64,000 nucleotides of DNA from Beroe forskalii (lineage: Eukaryota; Ctenophora; Nuda; Beroida; Beroidae): NCBI GenBank assembly GCA_011033025.1, contig WFMF01000283.1:62001-126000 (forward strand). Direction: 5' to 3'. Every line of letters starts with the position of its first letter. Within the stretch, counting starts at the first letter, position 1. The notes under the pieces were generated by a model, which saw only the letters and a program-made list of their open reading frames with translations, was not told the origin of the DNA and did not search any database. Below, piece after piece: positions 43,054 through 46,000 of the stretch. The position numbers and the translations under genes were made by a program.

Positions 43054-46000
43054 ATGAGTTTCACACAGATCGACTCGGATTGTAAGCTAGCTCGAGAGTA
43101 TGCGTTGCTAGGTAACTACGAGACTGCCATGGTTTACTATCAGGGCGTACTTCAGGAGGTAACCTTCCTTAATTTCCTGTTATTAATTATCGAGTAATAA
43201 AGTCATTGAAGAAATTTTAAGCTAGCTAGCCGTTCACTCGAACTCTGAAATCTGTTAACTTTGTAAATGAATCGTAGATGATTACAATAATTGATATGAG
43301 AACGTCAATAACAAATTCCCCATATTTCTCACAGATTCAGAAGATTTTGACGTCAATAAACGAAGCAGACCGGAAGCAGAAGTGGACGCAGGTCCGGCAG
43401 CAGATCAACGTTGAGTTCGAGCATGTCAAGGACATATCATCAGTTCTGGCCAGCTTCAAGTCGTCAGACCCGCCCCCAGTGTGTCGTCCCCCCGTTAGGG
43501 GACCACAGGACGACTTCATACTGCCGCAGGACGACAATGGGTGAGGGGGCCAGGATTTGGTTTTGAGGAAGAATTATTGTTCATTGGAGTTGCTAAATAT
43601 TTGAGAGCAATATCCGGTCTAAAATTCAGGCTTCAGCGCCTGAATTAAAGTTGAACTGTTCGGGTTCTTCCCAAATTTCATATCTGAATCGAGGGTTTTG
43701 GCCTCACATCTGTAATCCCGCCAATTTTCTATTACACTTCCCCTCTAGTATGACGCGGGTGTTATTTTCCTGAAAAAGCACTCTATAAATATCTCCAGGT
43801 TTGACCCTGATGTGTGGCCCCCTCCCACCCCTCCATATAACAACAGAAACCCCTCCCAGGTTTGACCCTGATGTATGGCCCCCTCACACCTCTTCCCCCC
43901 CCTCCTCCCCCCCTCCCCCCCTCCCCCCCATATAACATCTGATACCCTCCCAGGTTTGACCCTGATGTATGGCCCCCTCCCACCCCTCTATATAATGATA
44001 CCCCTCCCAGGTTTGACCCTGATGTGTGGCCCCCTCCCACCCCTCCATGTAATGATACCCCTCCCAGGTTTGACCCTGATGTGTGGCCCCCTCCCACCCC
44101 TCTATCTAATGATACCCCTCCCAGGTTTGACCCTGATGTATGGCCCCCTCCCACCCCTCTATCTAATGATACCTCCCAGGTTTTGACCCCTGATGTATGG
44201 CCACCTCCCACCCCTCTATATTATGATACCCCTCCCAGGTTTGACCCTGATGTATGGCCCCCTCCCACCCCTCCATGTAATGATACCCCTCTCAGGTTTG
44301 ACCCTGATGTATGGCCCCCTCCCACCCCCCTCCCTTATAATGATACCCCTCCCAGGTTTGACCCTGATGTATGGCCCCCTCCCACCCCCCTCGATAACAA
44401 CAGAAACCGGGCTCCCCCTGTACACAGAGACGTGAGAAACCCCCGGAGAAACGACCCACCCCGAGGCGGGAGAGGTAACTTGTTTTGTGCAGAGTAATGT
44501 ATACGCTCATTCACAAACTTAAAGTTTGAAAACGATCATCACGGGAATTATTTTGGCCAGTAAGGGCCTTATTAACTAGATTCATGTTCTCAAATACCAA
44601 AAAAGAACGAGACATCCTGAAGTCGAACTTTCACTGAATAACATGTGATATGAATGTTTCATGCTTTTAAATGCTTTATTTGCTTCAACTAACCAGTACC
44701 CTACAGTATCAAAACGCCGCCCAGGTGCTAACCAAGGCGGTAGGGCCGCCCTTGACAGGGCCCGGAATGCGCCCCGTGACGCCAACAAGAAGGAGGAGAA
44801 GAAACCCGCCAAGGACTACCCTGGCAGACCGCCAAAAGTCGAGCGACCTGTAAAGGAGAACTCAGAGCCCAAGTTCGACGGTGCAGGTAAGCATCAAAAT
44901 ATCACAGTTCTGGATTTAGCGTTGTCATAACTCATATCTTTTACTACGTTTTACTACCGAAATTTCAAGGTCGAAGCTCCTGACTTTTCAGGATATGATA
45001 AGGATTTGGTAGACCAGCTAGAACGAGATATCATATTCCGTAACCCTGATGTACGGTGGAGTGACATTGCTGGTTTGGAGGAAGCTAAGAAATTGCTAGA
45101 GGAAGCTGTAGTTCTGCCTATGATGATACCCGACTTCTTTACTGGCATCAGGGTAATACATTTATACATTGTACACTATACACTTCACACTATACATCAT
45201 ACACTAGACAATACATTCTTTACTGGCATCAGGTAACGTGCATGTTGATTTATTACTGAAATTCATTGGAATTGAATAGGATTTTATTGAATGTGGGTAT
45301 TTTGACGATGGCGGTGTTGGGATATCGTTATCTTCTATCATGACATTATAAAAGTAGTATATTGCATGCTGCTACATCAGGAGAAGCTAAGTGCTTTAGT
45401 GATGTAAATACTAACATGCATTACTGCATTACCGTTTGATAATTCATAATATGTCTGGGAAGATACTACTCATCAAATACCTAATGTATTAATCTTAACA
45501 ATGATCAAACATGCTTCTAAGTATTTTAAAGTTTTAACTTAGATCGATGCAACTCCACACACCTTTTGAATCAAGAACAACAGAATTCAAGCCCCTACCT
45601 GTCCTTTCAAATTTATATTATTTTGACTACAACTAGAATGCTAAATTCCCGCCATATTTTTGATCAATTATACGCAGAAAATTCTCCACTCTATCCCGCT
45701 CCCGTCCCCCATTTCAGACGACCCTGGAAAGGAGTTATGATGGTAGGCCCGCCTGGCACCGGTAAAACACTGCTGGCTAAAGCAGGCAGCTACGGAATGC
45801 GGCACTTACATTTCTTCAACGTTTCCTCCTCGACCTAACTTCCAAAATACTGTAGGGGACTCTGAGAAACTGGTGAAGCTCCTCTTCGAAATGGCTCGAT
45901 TCTATGCCCCCTCGACCATCTTCATCGACGAGATCGATAGTATTTGTTCGAAGCGAGGCTCTGATTCGGAGCACGAAGCCAGTCGGCGGGTTAAGTCTGA

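Follow-up and report, generated by a model that had tools for sequence, protein, structure and literature searches.

A repeated candidate splice acceptor at the linker exon of katanin p60 in the ctenophore Beroe forskalii

The window, by which we mean the whole 64-kb stretch of Beroe forskalii DNA that was analysed, contains two copies of one locus, copy A at 2738-30720 and copy B at 33459-47440, and in each of them the end of NDUFS3 is followed by a katanin p60 gene. NDUFS3 was recognized with an exon of copy B, whose best PDB match has an E value of 2.9e-11. For the second gene, exon 2 of copy A matches the MIT family PF21126 (KATNA1_MIT, E 1.4e-10) in Pfam, and a joined fragment finds the MIT chain of katanin p60 A1 in the PDB (5e-21). 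The AAA exon of copy A carries PF00004 (AAA), PF17862 (AAA_lid_3), and PF09336 (Vps4_C), and the top three PDB sequences for the AAA region are katanin A-like 1 and katanin A1. Judged by its domains, with the MIT domain at one end and the AAA, lid, and Vps4_C module at the other, the gene is katanin p60 (KATNA1/KATNAL1). Exact-pattern scans for relatives in viral contigs and genome contigs gave 0 matches, and a comparison of the AAA exon with viral contigs gave four pattern stretches and no relative. The features of the locus are listed in Table 1, where a slash marks a splice boundary, as in the text below.

Table 1 Features of the two katanin p60 copies and of their repeat arrays.
Feature	Coordinates	Strand	Remarks
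Copy A array, 5' part (A1), 19 units	21643-22700	+	
Insert in copy A array	22701-25610	+	Terminal inverted repeat of 11 bp, CTTACCTTCCA; flanked on either side by CCCAGGTT; contains a tandem satellite of 148 bp
Copy A array, 3' part (A2), 37 units	25611-27735	+	Last unit enters linker exon via acceptor 27625
AAA exon, copy A	28978-29737	+	Intact; AAA, AAA_lid_3, Vps4_C
First katanin p60 coding exon, copy B	43054-43158	+	ATG at 43054; copy A 18579-18683, same translation
Second coding exon (MIT domain end), copy B	43335-43540	+	Donor GG/GTGAGG; copy A counterpart 21213-21418
Copy B unit 1, founder-like, 61 nt	43799-43859	+	Shares the tail AACAACAGAAACC with the real exon; reading from own acceptor stops after NRNPSQV
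Copy B unit 2	43860-43953	+	C-run expanded, tail ATAACATCTGA; stop when read from own acceptor
Copy B, seven units (43954, 44011, 44068, 44125, 44180, 44239, 44296)	43954-44355	+	Open in the FDPDVW frame via in-frame acceptor
Linker exon from last acceptor, copy B	44356-44474	+	One FDPDVWPPP unit; donor GAG/GTAACT
Following linker exon (SKRRPGANQ...PKFDGA)	44707-44886	+	Identical in A and B
Coding exon 5, copy B	44992 to about 45151	+	
AAA exon, copy B	45718-46482	+	Frame disrupted; 14 indels in comparison with 28978-29737 of copy A

Several other features of the window were recorded. Tandem repeats make up about 25% of it, in several long arrays with periods of 12-148 nt. Reverse-transcriptase-like open frames occupy 18865-21109 on the minus strand (RVT_1, 1.4e-8 for 19567-20049) and sit in the intron that follows the first katanin coding exon of copy A; in copy B this intron has only 176 nt. 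An open frame of 157 aa at 4795-5268 and 34946-35419 differs by one nucleotide between the copies, and its copy A version has no Pfam match at E 0.001. An inverted repeat at 62394-62562 and 63527-63695 has arms of 169 nt that are 96% complementary and lie 964 nt apart. Divergence between the copies is patchy, with 0 substitutions in several exons and about 7% mismatches in some upstream stretches. The two copies may be unmerged haplotypes or the products of a recent duplication.

Upstream of the linker exon of copy B lies an array of ten units, mostly of 57 nt, each with CAG/GTTTGACC behind a C-rich tract. TRF finds 7.8 copies with 92% matches (score 741), and the array is far above chance. 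An earlier note on this DNA had described the acceptor and the start of exon 3 as repeated ten times, and ten AG/GTTT acceptors are indeed present within 43799-44356. Three of them, 43799, 43860, and 44180, fall outside the shared open frame; the seven at 43954, 44011, 44068, 44125, 44239, 44296, and 44356, exactly those listed in the note, have an open frame that is in phase with the donor at 44474, and the note's upstream donor after 43540 is also correct. The copies are not one fixed unit as the note had them, since their tails differ (PLYND, PCND, PLSND, PLYYD, PLPYND, and one SQVLT stretch). The linker repeats match no Pfam family at E up to 1, and the FDPDVW motif (query position 100) is covered by none of the best 50 stretches listed in the PDB search with the joined fragment. 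Human KATNAL1 presumably has a single DPxVWPPP-like motif.

The seven in-frame acceptors are spread across eight open units. Unit 44180 is read through in the FDPDVW frame although its own acceptor is out of frame, and for this reason the seven acceptors would add 0, 1, 2, 4, 5, 6, or 7 units; a variable unit number, as the note proposed, is borne out by the frames, while its range of 0-6 is not. The array is not the single open frame from end to end that would be expected of a coding VNTR, and reading from its first acceptor leads to a stop. When exons 1-4 of copy B (exon 4 is identical in A) are joined with exons 5 and 6 of copy A, the seven acceptors give chimeric frames of 643, 624, 605, 586, 548, 529, and 509 aa with no internal stops, so that the last acceptor alone yields a complete katanin frame. 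The statement that the protein would not be broken thus holds with the motor exons of copy A and fails in copy B as sequenced, where the AAA exon is disrupted.

Copy A contains the same kind of array at a larger size, with 56 units as assembled (19 + 37) versus 10 in B. Its two parts are separated by an insert of 2,910 nt, flanked by what appears to be an 8-bp target duplication (CCCAGGTT), a length that we take to recall hAT-type elements. The first unit past the insert (25616) has 61 nt, breaks the frame, and ends in the tail AACAACAGAAACC like unit 43799 of copy B. Another frame-breaking type, which carries ATAACATCTG, is represented by seven units, a single one of which lies in B. Both types together account for nine of the 66 units, seven in A, six of these in A2, and two in B, namely 43799 and 43860. 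As assembled, the acceptor at 27625 is not in phase, nor is any other in copy A.

Does a typical unit look like a 3' splice site? AG precedes the unit start at all 66 boundaries of A and B, a set that includes the two last, partial units and leaves out the mis-cut piece 43902 (part of unit 43860, without AG). CTGAT occurs 29-50 nt upstream of the boundary in 60 of 66 cases, and at least 35 preceding nucleotides are free of other AG in 61. The pyrimidine content before AG is 0.61-0.78 at 63 of the 66 boundaries and 0.56-0.83 at the gene's other acceptors, for which eight rows were used; the two rows before 43069 and 18594 were dropped because the sequence there is the start of the first coding exon. 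By these crude measures (branch-like motif, C-rich tract, AG) most units are comparable to the other acceptors of the gene. With all three elements in one repeated unit, the typical unit is a plausible 3' splice site, in which the PD codons of FDPDVW would double as the branch-like motif.

The same elements raise another reading, in which the CAG/GTTTGA boundaries act as acceptor and donor at once and the units are 57-nt introns, removed singly or by recursive splicing, in frame. A typical unit does begin with GT, end with AG, and hold CTGAT and a C-rich tract. Nevertheless, the units start with GTTT in 66 of 66 cases, a weaker fit to the donor consensus, whereas the gene's donors are all GTAA or GTGA (10 rows, after two rows that repeat a donor inside an intron were dropped), and this difference makes recursive splicing less likely. 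Duplication of an AGGT segment is a route to new introns in the available text of PMC4974935, which speaks for this reading; on balance we regard it as improbable.

Seven acceptors in one frame might seem a mark of selection, an idea that we did not accept. The unit has 57 nt, a multiple of three, and is stop-free in two of the three forward frames; with the tail shuffled and the length fixed at 57 nt, the coding frame stays open in 84% of trials. The shared frame follows from the period and is by itself no sign of selection. The largest in-frame sets of open acceptors, none strictly consecutive, number six in A1, seven in A2, and seven in B, and the A sets are thus of comparable size with no link to an in-phase exon end, although this is not a like-for-like comparison because they are maxima over 19 and 37 units and that of B over 10. 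When seven units are drawn at random from the pool of 55 in copy A, seven or eight open acceptors are obtained in about 1% of draws. By this measure copy B is cleaner than copy A, and the simplest reason is sequence quality: the A pool is rich in probable errors, and we take the result to reflect sequence quality more than selection.

The distinct unit variants comprise 11 synonymous and 19 nonsynonymous changes, compared with 41 and 127 among the 168 possible non-stop changes, an excess of synonymous changes that is at most mild and not a clear signal. In both copies, the 3' block of the array contains no unit of a frame-breaking type (P 0.05 in A2 and 0.03 in B, values that are not independent of each other). 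The columns that encode FDPDVW and the AG hold only two of the 30 distinct variants (binomial 2e-4, with the column set picked post hoc). Repeat homogenisation breaks independence in such tests. Avoidance of frame-breaking units in the 3' block, together with the variant-poor FDPDVW and AG columns, could weakly suggest that some 3' units are translated, and to that extent favors the note's reading.

These patterns bear on the proposal that splicing uses several of the in-frame acceptors to similar extents and thereby tunes the proline-rich linker by 0-7 units. In its favor are the seven open, in-phase acceptors, the 3' splice signals within the units, the 3' blocks of A2 and B without frame-breaking units, and the rarity of as many open acceptors in random draws from A. 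Set against these, the sets of six and seven in copy A lead to no in-phase exon end, and with 19 of 30 variants nonsynonymous the coding constraint is not strong. We consider comparable use of several acceptors rather unlikely. The capacity for in-frame choice that the note described is real in the sense of seven uninterrupted frames and of units with branch-like motif, C-rich tract, and AG; a regulated adjustment of linker length is conceivable but finds no support here. In a related proposal, the array would be a hypervariable splice-acceptor VNTR whose number of in-frame acceptors differs by allele, giving an allele-specific ladder of katanin isoforms in linker steps of about 19 residues, and this we think unlikely.

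The quality of the sequence itself has to be weighed. Within a single copy as written there is no uninterrupted katanin frame, because the motor exon of B is frame-broken and A lacks an in-phase acceptor; from the last acceptor, the first stop comes after 296 aa in B alone and after 148 aa in A alone. Between the 3' halves of the two copies there are 57 indel events versus 25 substitutions; they are clustered, with stretches of identical sequence longer than 350 nt in between. Relative to A, the motor exon of B shows 11 substitutions in addition to its indels, and the second coding exon differs by four substitutions with agreeing translations. The linker exon of A is 8 nt shorter than that of B, with three indels, all losses in A, and 0 substitutions. 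Likewise, eight indels and 0 substitutions distinguish the pair of units that precede the last one, every indel being a loss in A, which points to assembly error. Deletion events in the arrays start in homopolymer runs of at least three in 55 of 74 cases, such runs making up 44% of the unit columns (deletions and variants were counted in 62 of 65 segments, with 43860, 43902, and 26310 dropped). If the indels of copy A are errors, up to 14 of its units lie past the last frame-breaking one. We did not use the indels of copy A as a sign of a decayed intron, given this pattern of consensus error.

One might go further and regard the arrangement as an assembly artefact, in which two haplotypes or near-identical paralogues were written in tandem with a poorly corrected consensus, so that neither the length of the arrays nor the indels, nor even the presence of two loci, could be relied on. 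The excess of indels in the 3' half, the one-sided losses before the last unit, and the homopolymer bias fit such an artefact, as does the position of the frame breaks: B has them in its motor exon, A in its linker exon, and each copy stays open where the other fails. On the other hand, both copies contain the repeat family, their arrays agree at the 3' end, and variant units recur, all of which base errors would hardly produce, and intron 3 holds many differences (25 substitutions in 222 nt of A, 11%). An artefact of this extent is in our view quite unlikely. We read the indel pattern more narrowly as consensus error around a difficult repeat, with a real pair of damaged copies as the alternative.

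We favor, with a probability of about 0.55, a minisatellite that arose by duplication over the intron/exon boundary, in which the last acceptor is the main one and the in-frame upstream acceptors are tolerated. The array would have begun as a tandem duplication spanning the acceptor of the katanin linker exon, each typical unit carrying the exon start (FDPDVWPPP) and full 3' signals, that is the CTGAT branch-like motif, the C-rich tract, and CAG/G. Units 43799 and 25616, which have the tail of the real exon, 61 nt, and a broken frame, may be the oldest; if so, the first duplication product needed a downstream acceptor, and we infer that the in-frame 57-nt type spread later. The spliceosome most likely takes the last acceptor as its main site (44356 in B, 27625 in A), and an array of any length would then be spliced out with the intron. 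In-frame units at the 3' end of the array would be tolerated as alternative acceptors and may now and then lengthen the linker by DVWPPP units. Three features, namely the broken frame of the founder-like unit, the recurrence of frame-breaking units, and the 2.9-kb insert of copy A, argue that the array is probably intron for the most part. The favored reading also draws on the complete 509-aa frame from the last acceptor, on the 3' splice signals of the units, and on the agreement of the two arrays at their 3' ends, where the pair of units preceding the last shows 0 substitutions between A and B. Against it, splicing often prefers the upstream copy where acceptors of equal strength are duplicated, which here would give a stop; the 3' blocks free of frame-breaking types and the variant-poor FDPDVW and AG columns could mean that some 3' units are translated; and as many open acceptors as in B come up in about 1% of random draws from the error-rich pool of A.

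The ingredients of this arrangement have precedents. The available text of PMC4974935 describes intron gain by tandem duplication with splice signals in ATP2A1, in a potato RdRp gene, and in fission yeast with 24-bp repeats, where one intron spans two or four repeat copies. The katanin array resembles these cases, as far as that text presents them, in a within-gene tandem duplication that carries a branch site, a pyrimidine tract, and AG, with AGGT boundaries. Unlike them, it spans an existing intron/exon boundary, has ten or more units, and would multiply acceptors instead of founding one intron. In rainbow trout irak3, according to the accessible part of PMC6763605, repeats of an exon start lie within the upstream intron, and these copies are fewer and shorter than those of katanin.

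Two further systems offer likenesses. Coding VNTRs, such as mucin repeats, are in-frame proline-rich tandem repeats, as the katanin array also is; the latter differs in lying across a splice acceptor, in its 5' frame-breaking units, and in the insert of copy A. NAGNAG-type tandem acceptors offer alternatives in one frame and produce small in-frame length differences, whereas the katanin acceptors are about 57 nt apart and most come with a branch-like motif and tract of their own. Among the matches listed in the open-licence literature on minisatellites, VNTRs, repeated acceptors, and katanin, none showed an array like this one, an absence that proves little, and a match to the whole was not found there.

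Should splicing make use of the upstream acceptors, the length of a conserved microtubule-severing enzyme would be set by a minisatellite by way of splice-site choice, and not directly by coding copy number. Even with the last acceptor only, the array would be a natural test of how the spliceosome chooses among 10 to 56 similar acceptors, and would indicate that a duplication spanning an acceptor can lengthen an intron with the protein unaltered.
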